This document shows, piece by piece, positions 4,967 through 21,323 of a stretch of 21,323 nt of DNA. Under the pieces are notes generated by a model. That model did not search any database. It saw nothing but the letters and a program-made list of their open reading frames with translations, and was not told the DNA's origin. The DNA comes from a virus. The stretch spans positions 1 through 21,323 of IMG/VR virus record IMGVR_UViG_3300006128_001005. One strand, 5' to 3'. The number at the start of each line of letters is the position of its first letter. The first letter of the stretch is position 1. The position numbers and the translations under genes were made by a program.

Positions 4967-5035
4967 TAATATACTATCGTTGATAGCAATTAATAGGCGG
5001 GCAAGACGAGGCTTCGACTGCCTCCTGGTCCACCA

Positions 5036-5109
5036 CAGATACATTGGTTTCCATAGTCGGAACAAATATGGTGTAATAGGTTTTTCCGAACACCCAATGT
5101 ATCTTTGAT
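5036..5109 (+). other. Intervening segment removed from the tmRNA precursor
   Basis: Joins the acceptor end (ACCA to 5035) to the start of the coding piece (GGGCCAG from 5110). It contains a perfect 11-bp inverted repeat, AGATACATTGG (5037-5047) with CCAATGTATCT (5094-5104), and an inner TCGGAA/TTCCGA pair. The segment thus folds as a long hairpin stacked on the acceptor stem. In two-piece tmRNAs such a loop is cut out during maturation; the cut sites here are inferred. Confidence 0.8.
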
Positions 5110-5189
5110 GGGCCAGCAAGGGATCGATTGACGTTGAAAGGGTTGAAGTAGATAGTAGGTTGGTTGCTTTATAGACCAAAAAAGTAAAT

Positions 5190-5234
5190 GCAGCGAATGA
5201 TAACGCTTCATTTGAAATGCGCCTAGCGGCGTAA
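5190..5234 (+). other. tmRNA proteolysis tag reading frame (AANDNASFEMRLAA)
   Basis: Starts at the resume codon GCA after AGTAAAT and reads 14 codons plus TAA: AANDNASFEMRLAA. The AANDN start is typical of alphaproteobacterial tags (Caulobacter: AANDNFAEEFAVAA), where it helps SspB binding. The LAA end is the ClpX/ClpA-type degron. The middle, ASFEMR, differs from the usual FAEEFA type. Confidence 0.9.
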
Positions 5235-10738: not shown

Positions 10739-11848
10739 ATGCGTATAATTAATGATACTAAATTGGATTTCTCCGACGTTTTAATCTTGCCTAAACGTTC
10801 CACCCTTACAAGTCGTGAAGAAGTATCACTAGAAAGAACATTCAAGTTTAGAAATAGTGGTGCATCTTGGACTGGCGTAGGAATTATGGCGGCAAATATG
10901 GATGGCGTTGGAACATTTGAAATGGCAGAAAAACTTGCCACCTATAAAATGTTTGCTTGTTTGCGCAAGAATTATACGCCCGAAGAACTTATCCTTTGGA
11001 TTGGTCGCACTGGCTACGCAATACAAGACTATTGGGCTTATGGTCTTGGCATTAAACAAGAAGAATACGAAAATTTCAAACTTGTTAAGAGAATGTTGCC
11101 AAAGGATAATATCAAGTTTGTTTGTATTGATGTTGCGAATGGTTATACAGAACGATTTGTAGAGTTTGTTAAAAAATTCCGTAGTGAAAATCCTGACCTA
11201 GTTATCATTGCTGGTAATGTAGTCACTGGTGAAATGTGTGAGGAGTTGCTTCTTGCAGGAGCAGATATTATTAAAGTTGGTATTGGTCCTGGTAGTGTCT
11301 GTACTACTCGCCTCAAAACGGGTGTGGGTTATCCACAGCTTAGTGCTATTATTGAGTGTGCTGATGCTGCTCATGGGCTTGGCGGACATATCATTAGTGA
11401 TGGTGGTTGCACTTGCCCTGGCGACGTGTCTAAGGCTTTTGGGGCTGGCGCAGACTTCGTAATGCTTGGCGGCATGTTGGCTGGTCACGATCAAGGTGGC
11501 GGTGATATTGTATCACAAACCACTCGTAGTAACCAAGTATGGATACAAGATGATGGTACGCCCGATGATATCTTTACTACTAAACAGTTTGTTAAGTTCT
11601 ATGGCATGAGTTCAAAATCTGCCAATGATAAACATAGCGGTGGATTGAAATCATATCGTGCCGCAGAAGGCAAGGAAGTGGCCGTGCCTTATCGTGGTGA
11701 TGTGGGCGAAACCCTACAAGATATTCTTGGTGGAGTTCGTTCTACCCTAACTTATGTCGGCGCAAAACGTCTTAAAGAACTATCTAAACGCACAACTTTT
11801 ATCCGTGTCAATAATCAAGTGAATAATATTTTTTCAAAAAACCCTTGA
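10739..11848 (+). CDS. guaC: GMP reductase
   Basis: A 369-aa TIM-barrel enzyme that converts GMP to IMP and ammonia with NADPH. The sequence follows GMP reductases and not IMP dehydrogenase. It has [16 protein letters not shown] at the start, [12 protein letters not shown], the active-site loop [11 protein letters not shown] with Cys188 and Thr189, then [22 protein letters not shown]. Further on come [27 protein letters not shown] (key parts ISDGG and GADFVMLGG), [19 protein letters not shown] and RTTFIRV. The CBS domains of IMPDH are absent, and the length fits the family (about 345). It follows bS21 with a 14-nt gap. A phage could use it to shift purines from G towards A for an AT-rich genome, or to recycle host GMP; that purpose is inferred. 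The stop TGA lies within the -35 box of the next promoter. Confidence 0.93.
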
Positions 11849-11935: not shown

Positions 11936-12376
11936 ATGAGTAACCTACTACAGGTCTTCGACCAAAAACTTTTTGATAACCTTCATCGCACCACTATTGG
12001 TTTTGATCGTTTATTTAATGATATGCTACGTGTGAATAGCATTAACGTTCAGCAAAATTATCCACCATACAATATCATCCGTAACGATGACACCAATTAT
12101 GAAATTCAGATTGCCATCAGTGGCTTTTCTGAAAAGGATATTGATATCACACTAACTGATAATCAATTGGTTATCACTGGCGAAAACACTGATGAGGATA
12201 CCCGTGATTGGGTATATCGTGGTATTGCTAGCCGCAAGTTTATCCGCACATTTGCACTAAGTGACGATGTTGTGGTAAATTCTGCAAAGGTTAAGAATGG
12301 CTTGCTTATTGTTTCATTGGAACATATTATTCCAGACGAAAAGAAGCCAAAGAAAATCCCAGTAATTGCGGATTAA
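11936..12376 (+). CDS. Hsp20-family small heat-shock protein
   Basis: A 146-aa protein with a strong ribosome binding site (AAAGGAG). An N-terminal region of about 40 residues (FDQKLFDNLHRTTIGFDRLF, an IbpA-like opening) leads into the alpha-crystallin domain, about residues 44-135. That domain includes YNIIRNDDTNYEIQIAISGF, cut here to its ends, the strand LTDNQLVITGE, a YRGIASRKFIRTFAL segment typical of IbpA and the closing NGLLIVSLEH. The C-terminal IPV is the I-x-I/V anchor for oligomer formation. Such ATP-independent holdases are common in T4-like marine phages and are thought to protect capsid or host proteins during infection. It has its own promoter and is separated from clpS by a GC-rich hairpin. 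Confidence 0.92.
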   Translation: MSNLLQVFDQKLFDNLHRTTIGFDRLFNDMLRVNSINVQQNYPPYNIIRNDDTNYEIQIAISGFSEKDIDITLTDNQLVITGENTDEDTRDWVYRGIASRKFIRTFALSDDVVVNSAKVKNGLLIVSLEHIIPDEKKPKKIPVIAD

Positions 12377-12390
12377 TATATAGCAATAAA

Positions 12391-12422
12391 CACGGCGGGA
12401 ATTGTCCCGCCGTGTAAATATA
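12391..12422 (+). promoter_or_regulatory. GC-rich hairpin and promoter-like element between hsp20 and clpS
   Basis: CACGGCGGGA (12391-12400), loop ATTG, and TCCCGCCGTG (12405-12414) form a perfect 10-bp stem of high GC in an AT-rich setting. No T-run follows; instead GTAAATATAATA begins at its edge, similar to elements at 11867 and 16561. It may block exonucleases at the 3' end of hsp20 mRNA, act as a terminator of an unusual type, and mark a new transcript start for clpS. Confidence 0.55.
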
Positions 12423-12428
12423 ATAGAG

Positions 12429-12752
12429 ATGAGTAAAATGAGCACAGACGCAGCCACAAAAACTCGTGTTAAGATTGCACCTAAAACTGACTTAGCACCA
12501 CCACCTAAGTTTCAAGTTATCTTTTTTAATGATAATGTAACTACTGTAGAATTTGTTATGCATGTTTTAACAGAAATATTTGAGCATGATGAAGATAATG
12601 CAATGACATTAACAGCTAAAATTCATGAGCAAGGTCAAGCAGTAGTAGCAGTATTTCCTTTTGAAATTGCTGAAAGCAAAGCAGTTGAAACAACATTGCT
12701 TGCAAGAACAAACAGCTTTCCACTTAATGTAAAGATTGAACCTGTATCCTAA
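12429..12752 (+). CDS. clpS: ClpS-like N-degron adaptor
   Basis: A 107-aa protein (start ATG 12429; ATG 12438 is also possible). A frame extension to TTG 12402 would lie in the hairpin and is rejected. The ClpS core spans residues 26-104: PKFQVIFFNDNVTTVEFVMH, the helix with His66 in KIHEQGQ, and the end FPFEIAESKA...LNVKIEP. ClpS delivers proteins with destabilising N-termini to ClpA-containing protease. Using E. coli numbering, which matches here, Asn34, Asp35 and His66 of the binding pocket are kept, but Asp36 is Asn and the gatekeeper Met40 is Val. The pocket may therefore accept a different residue set. The gene follows hsp20 and meets the phosphoesterase gene with a 4-nt convergent overlap. 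Some phages are known to carry clpS; the effect on the host is not known. Confidence 0.88.
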   Translation: MSKMSTDAATKTRVKIAPKTDLAPPPKFQVIFFNDNVTTVEFVMHVLTEIFEHDEDNAMTLTAKIHEQGQAVVAVFPFEIAESKAVETTLLARTNSFPLNVKIEPVS

Positions 12753-15594: not shown

Positions 15595-16077
15595 ATGAAC
15601 AGTAAATTTATCGTAGATTTATACAAATCATGCAAGGCGTTGCAAGTAGTAACAACCCAAAATGAATTTTCTACAAACATATGTGGTAAAAGTCCTAGAT
15701 GGTTTTCAGTTGTATCTTCTAACGATAGAACAATATCAACTGACAGTTTAGTAAGGGCATACAAAAACATTGAGGCACTTGCTCAAAAACAAGAAAACTC
15801 ACATATTAAATTATTATTAATAGATTTGGTTACAGATATCAAAAATCATATTGATAATAAACTTGCCCCATCTTCTTTAGAAATACAAACTCAAGAGATA
15901 TCTACGGGTTTAGAAAATTACCAAAAAAAATATAGTAGTAATATAAAGAAAATAAAAAATATTTCACAACAAAATTCTGATAACAATAAAGAACTTTTAA
16001 AAACTATAAAAGAAATTATTAACTCAAACACAATGTTTATTCAAGAATTGAAAGAAAGTTTAAAAGAATTAGAATAA
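15595..16077 (+). CDS. Putative HTH-like plus coiled-coil protein, unknown
   Basis: A 160-aa protein. ATG 15595 is chosen because TAAGGA (15581-15586) is at good distance; the in-frame ATG 15574 has no such signal. Residues about 5-60 (LYKSCKALQVVTTQNEFS, then GKSPRWFSVVSSNDRTIS, then DSLVRAY) look like a small helix-turn-helix type domain: EFS is at the turn, GKSPRWFS could be the recognition part. Residues about 85-160 form a Lys/Glu/Asn-rich coiled coil. Its codons are more A-rich than those of the preceding gene. The structured RNA candidate starts about 20 nt after its stop, so protein and RNA may work together or have arrived together. The function is not known; a DNA- or RNA-binding regulator is a guess. 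Confidence 0.62.
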   Translation: MNSKFIVDLYKSCKALQVVTTQNEFSTNICGKSPRWFSVVSSNDRTISTDSLVRAYKNIEALAQKQENSHIKLLLIDLVTDIKNHIDNKLAPSSLEIQTQEISTGLENYQKKYSSNIKKIKNISQQNSDNNKELLKTIKEIINSNTMFIQELKESLKELE

Positions 16078-16095
16078 GCAACTATCAGATTTTTA

Positions 16096-16283
16096 ACGGT
16101 GGCACGGCTGTGCTAAAAGGTTGGAGCGAGTATAACTAAAAACCGAATGTGAGGGATGCATACCGAGATCAACGGGCTGGACAGGTGAGAGACCTGTGGA
16201 AGGTAATGGTGATTGCGTAAGGCAGTTGAAACCCGAAAACTATAAGCCAAACTAAAACCATCGTGGGGATAGCAACCCACACG
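16096..16283 (+). ncRNA. Structured RNA candidate of unknown family
   Basis: The 218 bases between genes are clearly richer in G and C than the flanking coding DNA and have no convincing reading frame. Several stems can be drawn. A closing helix is ACGGTGG (16096-16102) with CCATCGT (16258-16264). Others are GCAC/GTGC with loop GGCT (16102-16113), and CGGG (16173-16176) with CCCG (16232-16235). The last pair encloses two hairpins, ACAGGT/ACCTGT (16181-16197) and ATTGC/GCAGT with loop GTAAG (16212-16226). A final hairpin is CGTGGGG/CCCACACG with one bulge (16262-16283). The closing helix and final hairpin share bases and may be alternatives, as in a switch. It does not match tRNA, tmRNA, SRP RNA, RNase P RNA or a riboswitch I know. 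Confidence 0.6.
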
Positions 16284-16295
16284 TTAAAAAACTAC

Positions 16296-16324
16296 TTGAC
16301 AAAACAAAAACTATATAGTATTAT
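16296..16324 (+). promoter_or_regulatory. Sigma70-type promoter of the 65-aa gene
   Basis: TTGACA (16296-16301), a 17-nt spacer, then TATTAT (16319-16324). Transcription from about 16331 keeps the purine-rich site AGAGAG before ATG 16345. It lies directly after the last hairpin of the RNA candidate. Confidence 0.75.
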
Positions 16325-16344: not shown

Positions 16345-16542
16345 ATGACAATGCTAATCATGGGATATAAAGATAAGCCAGAGTGGTCAAAGGTTCGTGC
16401 TGCGTTCAAACGTTGCACAGACTTGCCTGCCGCTGACATTGAGAAGATTGTCAAGAATGTCAAGGAAGGCAAAACTGAAACCATTCCTAATGACCATACG
16501 TTATATGAAGACCTAAAAGAGTTAGGTATTCTAATCAAGTAA
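16345..16542 (+). CDS. 65-aa protein resembling the C-terminal domain of bL12
   Basis: A small basic protein with its own promoter and an AGAGAG binding site. The order helix (SKVRAAFKRCTDL), helix (ADIEKIVKNVKEG), short turn, helix (HTLYEDLKELGI) and final strand (LIK) resembles the bL12 C-terminal domain, with K-x-V-R...T-x-L...IV in the first half and a closing L-x-x-L-K-E-L-G-x-x-I. The bL12 domain recruits translation factors on the ribosome, and ClpS has a related fold. The match is by eye and short, so another helical fold is possible. With bS21, tmRNA and tRNA in the same window, a role near the ribosome is plausible but inferred. Confidence 0.6.
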   Translation: MTMLIMGYKDKPEWSKVRAAFKRCTDLPAADIEKIVKNVKEGKTETIPNDHTLYEDLKELGILIK

Positions 16543-18591: not shown

Positions 18592-20055
18592 ATGATATTA
18601 GGTATTAATGCTAACAATCATGATGCAAGCATTGCTCTTGTTGATGGGTCTAATATTCTGTTTGCAGGTCACGCTGAACGGTATAGCAGAGTAAAAAACG
18701 ATTCACATCTTAATGAAGCCTTAATTGATGATGCGTTACAATATGGCATACCAGATAAAATAGTTTGGTACGAACAGCCATGGAAACGTAGCATTCGTAG
18801 TCTTGTTAGTGGGCAGCGTCCGCTATATTATAGTTTAAAATCTTATCTTAAAAAATATGGATTAGGTAAAATACCTGTTGAAACTACGCCACATCATGGC
18901 GCACATGCTGCAATGGGATATTATACCAGTGAATTTCCTGATGCTGCTATTGTGGTAATTGATGCTATTGGCGAACTAGATTGCACCTCTATATGGCGTG
19001 GTCGTGGCCATAAACTTTTTAAAATTTTTACCAAAGTATATCCACAAAGTATTGGGCTATTCTATAGTGCTATCACAGATTATCTTGGGTTTAAACCAAA
19101 TGAAGAAGAATATATTGTCATGGGCATGGCAGCATACGGCGAACCAAAGCATCTTAAAGAGATGCTCAATGAGTTCTTTGGTGCATGGTCGCCACCTCAC
19201 ATAGAGTTCAAACATAATTTACATCGTGGTATGCGTTGGTGGACTAAGCCCAAAGATGAAGGTTGGAAACCAGAAGATATTGCAGCCTCTGCACAAGCAT
19301 TGTATGAGCAATACTTGATGGCAATTTGTCGCTATGCTCGTGATGTGATTGGCAGTGATAATCTTGTATTGGTAGGTGGTTGCGCACTGAATTGTGTGGC
19401 AAACAGCCGATTAAAAACATTTACTGAATTTAATAAGATATGGGTGCCACCAAATCCTGGCGATAGTGGTTTAAGTTTGGGTGCGATTACCTATCATACT
19501 AAAAAACATGTGCATCTAAATCATGCTTTTCTTGGTTATGATATTCGTCGCACTGTAAATGTGCGTGATGTAGTCGATGCATTAGAAGCAGGTCAAGTAG
19601 TTGGGATTGCTAATGGTCGAGCAGAATTTGGTCCGCGTGCTTTGGGTAATCGTTCGTTGCTCGCTGATCCACGTGGGCCTGATGTTAAAGATCGAGTAAA
19701 TGCAATTAAAAAACGTGAGCCATTTCGTCCATTTGCTCCTATCATATTAAAAAGTTTCTATAACGATTATTTTTATAGTAAAATGCGAGTAAATCATGAT
19801 TATATGCAATGGGCAGATGATTGTTTAGACCCACAATCTTTTCCTGCAATTTGTCATGTTGATGGAACCGCTCGTGTGCAAACAATTGACCAACCTACGA
19901 CAAGTATCATATACAAAATATTAGAAGCATGGTATGCACGAACTCGTTGTCCAATTTTGCTCAATACAAGTTTAAACATAAAAGGCGAACCGCTGGTTAA
20001 TACATGGGGCGATGCCCAAAGATTTTCTGAGTTGAATAATGTAACGGTATTCTAA
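18592..20055 (+). CDS. NodU/CmcH-family carbamoyltransferase
   Basis: A 487-aa protein with two domains. The N-terminal ASKHA/Kae1-like domain begins GINANNHDASIALVDG and has the metal-binding HHGAH motif at residues 101-105, then VVIDAIGELDCTSIWRG. VGGCALNCVANSRL near residue 262 closes this part. The C-terminal domain holds GRAEFGPRALGNRSLLADPR (residues about 342-361), EPFRPFAP and LLNTSLNIKGEPLV, the last as in NodU and TobZ. The family transfers a carbamoyl group from carbamoyl phosphate, via carbamoyl-adenylate, to a hydroxyl of a sugar or antibiotic. It is shorter than TobZ (about 570 aa). In a phage it may modify a surface glycan or a DNA base; the substrate is unknown. It is coupled to the SGNH gene through TAATG. 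Confidence 0.92.
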   Translation: MILGINANNHDASIALVDGSNILFAGHAERYSRVKNDSHLNEALIDDALQYGIPDKIVWYEQPWKRSIRSLVSGQRPLYYSLKSYLKKYGLGKIPVETTPHHGAHAAMGYYTSEFPDAAIVVIDAIGELDCTSIWRGRGHKLFKIFTKVYPQSIGLFYSAITDYLGFKPNEEEYIVMGMAAYGEPKHLKEMLNEFFGAWSPPHIEFKHNLHRGMRWWTKPKDEGWKPEDIAASAQALYEQYLMAICRYARDVIGSDNLVLVGGCALNCVANSRLKTFTEFNKIWVPPNPGDSGLSLGAITYHTKKHVHLNHAFLGYDIRRTVNVRDVVDALEAGQVVGIANGRAEFGPRALGNRSLLADPRGPDVKDRVNAIKKREPFRPFAPIILKSFYNDYFYSKMRVNHDYMQWADDCLDPQSFPAICHVDGTARVQTIDQPTTSIIYKILEAWYARTRCPILLNTSLNIKGEPLVNTWGDAQRFSELNNVTVF

Positions 20056-20678: not shown

Positions 20679-21323
20679 ATGACACAAAAACGTATCGGCT
20701 TTTGCTGCAAATGGATTGACACCGTGGATCAACTTGATGGCTTCAAACCTAAAGATGATGCACTCCGCTATAACAACAAGACCACCACGGTGGCTTGGCT
20801 GAACCGCCAGACTAGGGCAGTTGCTGAGCAACGTCTGTGGGATATTATGGAGCATAATACAGATGCCACATTACGATTGGTGGAGCGTGTGGGAACACTT
20901 GCACCAGAACTACGAATGGTACGCCTTAGTAGCGACATACTGCCTGTTTACACTGAGCCAACTTGGGGCTATTTCTGGACTGATCAACACATTCGTAAAA
21001 CCATTGCGCAGCGATTGGCCAAAGTTGGAGAGGCTGCTAAACGTCTTGATGTTAGGGTCTCTTTTCATCCTGGTCAATTTTGCGTCCTTGCTAGTGACAG
21101 AGACAGTGTTGTTTCAAGTTCAATTGCTGAATTTGAATATCATGCTGACTTGGCTCGTTGGATGGGTTTTGGTTCTAGTTGGCATGATCACGGTTTTAAA
21201 ATCAATGTGCATATTAGTGGTAAAGGTGGTCCATTGGCTATACGAGCCATACAATCCCGATTATCGCCAGAAGCCAGAAACCTTATCACAATAGAAAACG
21301 AGGAATATACATATGGACTTGAT
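20679..21323 (+). CDS. uvsE: UV damage endonuclease UvdE (partial, runs off the window)
   Basis: The first 215 residues of a UvdE-type enzyme; the frame is open to the last base. The start MTQKRIGFCCKW matches the first strand of the family. Then come ELRMVRLSSDILPVYTEP (Arg and Ser of the first active-site strand), LDVRVSFHPGQFCVLASDR (His130, Gln133), IAEFEYHADLARWMG, INVHISGKGG and TIENEEYTYGLD (Glu206, Asn207). UvdE is a TIM-barrel enzyme with metal ions that nicks DNA 5' of UV photoproducts and starts repair without UvrABC. In a phage of sunlit water it would protect or revive its own DNA. An insert with FGSSWHDHGF before the INVHI strand is slightly unusual. GC content appears higher than in neighbours, which may mean a separate origin. 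Confidence 0.9.
   Translation, partial: MTQKRIGFCCKWIDTVDQLDGFKPKDDALRYNNKTTTVAWLNRQTRAVAEQRLWDIMEHNTDATLRLVERVGTLAPELRMVRLSSDILPVYTEPTWGYFWTDQHIRKTIAQRLAKVGEAAKRLDVRVSFHPGQFCVLASDRDSVVSSSIAEFEYHADLARWMGFGSSWHDHGFKINVHISGKGGPLAIRAIQSRLSPEARNLITIENEEYTYGLD

Follow-up and report, generated by a model that had tools for sequence, protein, structure and literature searches.

The window analysed here is the whole of a 21.3 kb IMG/VR virus record (21,323 nucleotides), and the element that concerns us is a short GC-rich island on its plus strand (Table 1), flanked by the stop codon of a gene for a 167-aa protein (at 16077) and by a consensus promoter, beyond which lies a gene for a 65-aa protein. 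The GC content of the island is 46%, compared with 28-38% in its neighbourhood; it has stops in all six frames, and no open reading frame is shared with its relatives. An initial annotation of the window had described such a GC-rich island without a reading frame, with a gene upstream and a promoter downstream, which we confirmed at the same place, and had proposed that it encodes a structured RNA, about 190 nt long and assigned to no family, a proposal borne out by the homologues and compensatory changes described below. The window also contains metabolic and repair genes of the phage, coding for a carbamoyltransferase (18592-20055), the UvdE endonuclease (20679-21323) and an IMPDH/GMP reductase (10739-11848).

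Table 1. Features of the RNA locus, in coordinates of the window.
Feature	Position	Strand	Remarks
Whole RNA gene (predicted)	16082-16291; conserved core 16090-16290	+	From alignment of 16 distinct copies; ends inexact
Match of covariance model R1	16087-16291	+	241 bits
P1, closing helix, 5' strand	16090-16099	+	Partner strand 16281-16290; double change (A-U to G-C) in L052
P1, 3' strand	16281-16290	+	A-tract directly before the -35 box
P1 mismatch in the window	16099 vs 16281	+	Unpaired position in the closing helix
Hairpin P2	16101-16114 (16101-16105/16110-16114)	+	G-U to A-U in the two distant copies, otherwise invariant
P3 domain	16143-16175 (16143-16145/16173-16175)	+	G-C to A-U in 5 copies; C-G to A-U in L053
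P3 tip hairpin	16154-16164; palindrome AUGCAU 16156-16161	+	A-U to C-G in 5 copies
Hairpin P5	16181-16197 (16181-16186/16192-16197)	+	C-G to U-A in two copies
P6	16206-16210/16257-16261	+	Once shifted by one column, L052 and L053 show two double changes
Hairpin P7	16212-16226 (16212-16216/16222-16226)	+	Most variable stem; double changes in four pairs
P9, probable pseudoknot helix with P6	16202-16233 (16202-16204/16231-16233)	+	Paired in 16 sequences, with wobble changes
Hairpin P8	16263-16280 (16263-16267/16276-16280)	+	Three pairs in 16/16, little variation
Candidate RNA promoter, weak	16048-16075	+	TTGAAA-16-TAGAAT, inside the end of the 167-aa gene
Promoter of the 65-aa gene	16296-16324	+	TTGACA-17-TATTAT, directly after the RNA; conserved in relatives
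65-aa gene	16345-16542	+	Constant downstream neighbour; L12-CTD/ClpS-like predicted fold

Relatives were collected by searches with the downstream 65-aa gene and with an upstream 269-aa gene, and DNA patterns derived from the island recovered the same set of contigs plus three more. The island is present in 23 IMG/VR phage contigs besides the window, and in all 20 contigs that hold the 65-aa gene it lies directly upstream of the same promoter and that gene. Eight larger phage records, of up to 338 kb, have one copy apiece, and the island is absent from phage records with a divergent homologue of the 269-aa protein (32-37% identity). In the distant phages L097 (from position 1507) and L098 (from 4727), a consensus promoter comes after the homologue of the 269-aa gene, the small gene there is a different one and the RNA is missing, which represents a natural state without the element. 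Two pattern scans of bacterial genome contigs gave no match, as did searches of the INPHARED phages by blastn with the island and with the neighbouring proteins as queries; a loose pattern for the 5' part returned from viral contigs, beyond the known set, chance matches only. Judging from these searches, the RNA is conserved within one clade of uncultivated phages. The source samples of the relatives appear to be mainly freshwater, lake-type metagenomes, so the marine origin suggested for homologues by the initial annotation is probably not apt. Mean identity among relatives reaches 0.90 in the island and 0.64 at 4-fold sites of the neighbouring 65-aa gene; the former value is distorted by one poorly aligned copy (L052), so that the per-contig identities of 0.76-0.98 are more reliable. 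Alleles of P3 and P7 occur in mosaic combinations between contigs (L032, L003), which suggests that recombination may have taken place inside the RNA gene.

Sixteen distinct copies, namely 14 close sequences and two much more distant relatives (L052 and L053), were aligned with MAFFT over about 205 positions; their divergence is limited. The island of the window has a folding energy of -52.8 kcal/mol (z -1.03), and 37 of 200 shuffles fold equally well, hence the energy z-score was not significant and was dropped as evidence of structure; the RNA structure is evident from the comparative data and not from folding of a single sequence. In the alignment before any correction, a structure of 42 pairs has 95.1% of its cells paired; double changes occur in 9 of the pairs and in 26 cells, and the covariation score is 0.137. 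These four values are not reached in 500 shuffled controls, and a sliding-partner control leaves 36-46% of cells paired, both controls being biased in favour of the structure, which was drawn from the same, mutually related sequences. Helices P3, P6, P7 and P8 were off by about one column in L052 and L053 and were corrected by hand, a procedure that favours pairing; double changes are still found without it in P1, P3, the P3 tip, P5 and P7, while those in P6 depend on it. After correction they comprise pairs 9/223 (A-U to G-C) and 5/227 of P1, 60/103 and 58/105 of P3, 71/76 of the P3 tip, 113/127 of P5, 141/196 and 142/195 of P6, and pairs of P7. The helix P9 is paired in all 16 sequences, by way of wobble changes only, and is weaker evidence than the other helices; together with P6 it probably forms a pseudoknot. 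The P3 tip is a palindrome, AUGCAU in the window and CUGCAG in other copies, and could serve as a dimer contact.

Compensatory base changes in conserved helices, which we took as the mark of a structured non-coding RNA and which the initial annotation had advised looking for among homologues, were thus found in several helices, and the predicted fold is preserved by such changes in both divergent relatives. The individual stems proposed in that annotation fared unequally. Two of the four, 16181/16192 (P5) and 16212/16222 (P7), are right and exhibit double changes. A long-range closing helix does exist, as P1, but the pairing given for it (16096/16258) is wrong, one of its seven pairs being kept in 4 of the 16 sequences (11 of the 16 have C at column 14); the core stem 16173/16232 is not supported either, with 81% of cells paired and a last pair that fails. 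The covarying alternatives to these two stems are P1, P6 and P3, with the coordinates given in Table 1. It is very likely that we are dealing with a real and functional structured RNA.

Since G-U cells outnumber A-C cells by 25 to 1 (13 of the 25 being contributed by one conserved P2 pair), the RNA can be assigned to the plus strand. The same numbers bear on the alternative that the island acts at the level of DNA, as an UP element of the promoter, an origin or a packaging site, with inverted repeats that merely resemble RNA helices. The A-tract of P1 indeed lies directly upstream of the -35 box, at what we presume to be the position expected of an UP element, for which it is a candidate only. 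However, a DNA element does not require the excess of G-U cells, and helices far from the promoter also covary, which leaves a DNA-level role as a highly improbable explanation.

A comparison with the 4227 families of Rfam yielded no gathering-level match for the window copy or for four other copies searched, in agreement with the initial annotation, in which no RNA family had been recognised; the window copy has no match up to E 10. Hits of cmscan to PreQ1, raiA, 6S, SscA, DUF805b, pemK and GP20-b are below the cut-off and vary between copies, and were rejected. No published description of the RNA was found in a non-exhaustive search of the open-access literature. The RNA is therefore a new, orphan family among phage-encoded structured RNAs, a kind of element that is already known. 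GOLLD and ROOL are likewise orphan structured RNAs from phage or environmental sequences; they are much larger than the phage RNA and have no sequence or model match to it. These ornate RNAs form homo-oligomers (PMC12286853). The compact fold with its probable pseudoknot, located at the junction of two transcription units, might also be read as a ribozyme, self-cleaving or catalytic in another way, by which the transcript is cut at the border of the upstream and downstream operons, but no ribozyme family of Rfam is matched and we recognised no invariant core of the kind that known ribozymes have, so that we consider catalysis very unlikely. Nothing was found in support of the self-cleaving element, or of the ribosome or protease mimic, that had been put forward in the initial annotation.

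A further lead from Rfam is the match of L052 to HPnc0580 (RF02269), which extends along the model and scores 20.9 bits, below the gathering cut-off of 37. HPnc0580 is an RNA carried by the mini-IS605 of H. pylori (PMC6531487), and from this location we infer that it is itself a TnpB guide RNA of IS605. The phage RNA might accordingly be a TnpB/IS605 guide RNA that survives as a relic or decoy, descended from an omega-RNA but now immobile, and perhaps titrating a host TnpB or Cas12 enzyme by mimicry. The order of stem, enclosed hairpin and possible pseudoknot is the same in both RNAs, and L052 shares with HPnc0580 the collinear motifs GUGUGAGACCU, GG-A-G-GUU and GUAAAAUCC as well as a similar small pseudoknot and enclosed hairpin; when the profiles were compared, p lay between 1e-5 and 2e-4, a value for a single comparison with a lead picked from 4227 families. 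On the other hand, the match was obtained with one of the five copies searched, with none in the window or L053 and weak cmscan matches unrelated to HPnc0580 in L017 and L002; the H. pylori RNA has no P5 stem (the 5' half of P5 is missing), and our covariance model R1 finds nothing at the HPnc0580 site in Helicobacter plasmids. Neither PF07282 above the cut-off nor PF01385 was detected in 14 phage records (none known to be complete), and, unlike in the setting of HPnc0580, no transposon end, TnpB or guide is seen in them. The omega-RNA of ISDra2 has stems 2-4 inside its pseudoknot and the guide right after it (PMC10097598); the phage RNA resembles it in general type, with a stem followed by a pseudoknot strand, but lacks both stems 2-4 and a guide position, the 3' strand of P6 being followed instead by the conserved hairpin P8 and P1. 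Signs of mobility (several positions or copies) are also missing, as the single copy always precedes the same promoter and gene. With a score below the cut-off, no guide and no mobility, we treat kinship to TnpB guide RNAs as unproven, and descent from one, or imitation of one, as a marginal prospect.

As regards transcription, relatives of the L009 group have a promoter with 11 of 12 matches (TTGACA-17-TACAAT) that ends three bases before P1, and L052 has a homologous promoter, TTGACA-17-TATATA, in the same place, with the -35 and -10 boxes kept and the spacer changed; the chance of a promoter placement this good is about 4e-4. In these relatives a sigma-70 promoter would be expected to start transcription at P1. 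The corresponding candidate in the window is weaker. In most other relatives the RNA begins a few bases after a stop codon, with no recognisable promoter between the stop and P1, so there it must either belong to a longer transcript or be driven by a promoter that escaped recognition. No terminator was seen after P1 among the relatives, except for a T-run in L052, and the downstream -35 box begins a few bases after P1.

The gene upstream of the RNA differs between contigs (269-aa, 167-aa, 169/182-aa, 59-aa or others), hence no single upstream gene goes with the RNA, while the RNA, the downstream promoter and the 65-aa gene stay together. Small genes of various kinds are inserted after the 269-aa gene, ahead of the RNA (in L009, L014, L016, L019, L052 and the window); the 169/182-aa gene of L009 and L052 sits there and ends in the promoter for the RNA. 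The constant downstream partner, found in 20 of 20 contigs, favours the main rival to our preferred reading, according to which the RNA is a cis-acting leader, attenuator or processing signal of the downstream operon. Transcripts entering from upstream would then contain the RNA ahead of the 65-aa gene, and read-through, stability or translation would be controlled by the fold, with the internal promoter yielding a second, unregulated transcript. The lack of a visible RNA promoter in most relatives, where the RNA would be read with the upstream gene, agrees with such a role, and the fold could also act on decay of the upstream mRNA. A leader role is, however, disfavoured by the strong promoter that separates the RNA from the 65-aa gene; besides, upstream genes vary and no expression platform, terminator or start-site sequestration was seen. 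The L10/L12 leader (RF00557) offers a parallel, in that a structured RNA precedes a gene whose product has a predicted fold like the C-terminal domain of L12, but there is no cmscan match to it, and in the phage a promoter lies between RNA and gene. Altogether, we regard action in cis as somewhat unlikely, if far from negligible.

The model of the 65-aa protein (pLDDT 92.5) resembles the C-terminal domain of bL12 (Z 7.8 over 59 residues, rmsd 2.1) and ClpS (Z 7.3), and a Foldseek search with it gave E-values of 0.08 and worse. As such Z values can reflect a common arrangement only, the bL12 C-terminal/ClpS type is a description of the predicted fold and not of function. The protein has no match to a Pfam or PHROG family and no BLASTP similarity to the phage's own ClpS. 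The latter (PF02617, E 4e-24) is encoded at 12402-12752 (+), adjoining an Hsp20 gene (PF00011) at 11936-12376 (+), and a permuted (two-piece) tmRNA gene, not called by ARAGORN, lies at 4973-5234 (+), with 82 bits to RF04321. Two-piece tmRNAs are already known to be carried by aquatic phages (PMC9004378). Together, ClpS, Hsp20 and tmRNA look like a proteolysis or quality-control set, and their presence in the same genome hints at control of translation quality and proteolysis.

Promoters that start at P1 and the presence of a promoter after the RNA favour action in trans over action in cis, and if the RNA is trans-acting, its locus is simply stable. Our preferred reading, to which we give an even chance, is that of a trans-acting phage non-coding RNA, either transcribed on its own or processed from the upstream mRNA. 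The family comprises phage-encoded structured RNAs of about 200 nt, with a fold closed by P1 that includes several hairpins and probably the P9/P6 pseudoknot. The RNA would become a discrete molecule either by transcription from a host-type (sigma-70) promoter of its own at P1, for which L009 and L052 are the examples, or by being cut from the tail of whichever upstream mRNA precedes it. In the infected cell it would most likely bind a protein or ribonucleoprotein of the host or the phage, and may do so as a homodimer held by the palindromic P3 tip. More specific versions, with a mimic of the host guide-RNA scaffold (TnpB/Cas12) or of another ribonucleoprotein RNA titrating the enzyme, or with an RNA-only machine built as a homodimer through the P3 tip, have in our opinion a very slim probability.

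Catalogued structured phage RNAs are few, and the present one belongs to a clade without a close isolate in the phage collection; an alignment and a working covariance model of it are now available, together with a short list of candidate functions. If trans-acting, this RNA would be a new phage tool to take over host machinery.
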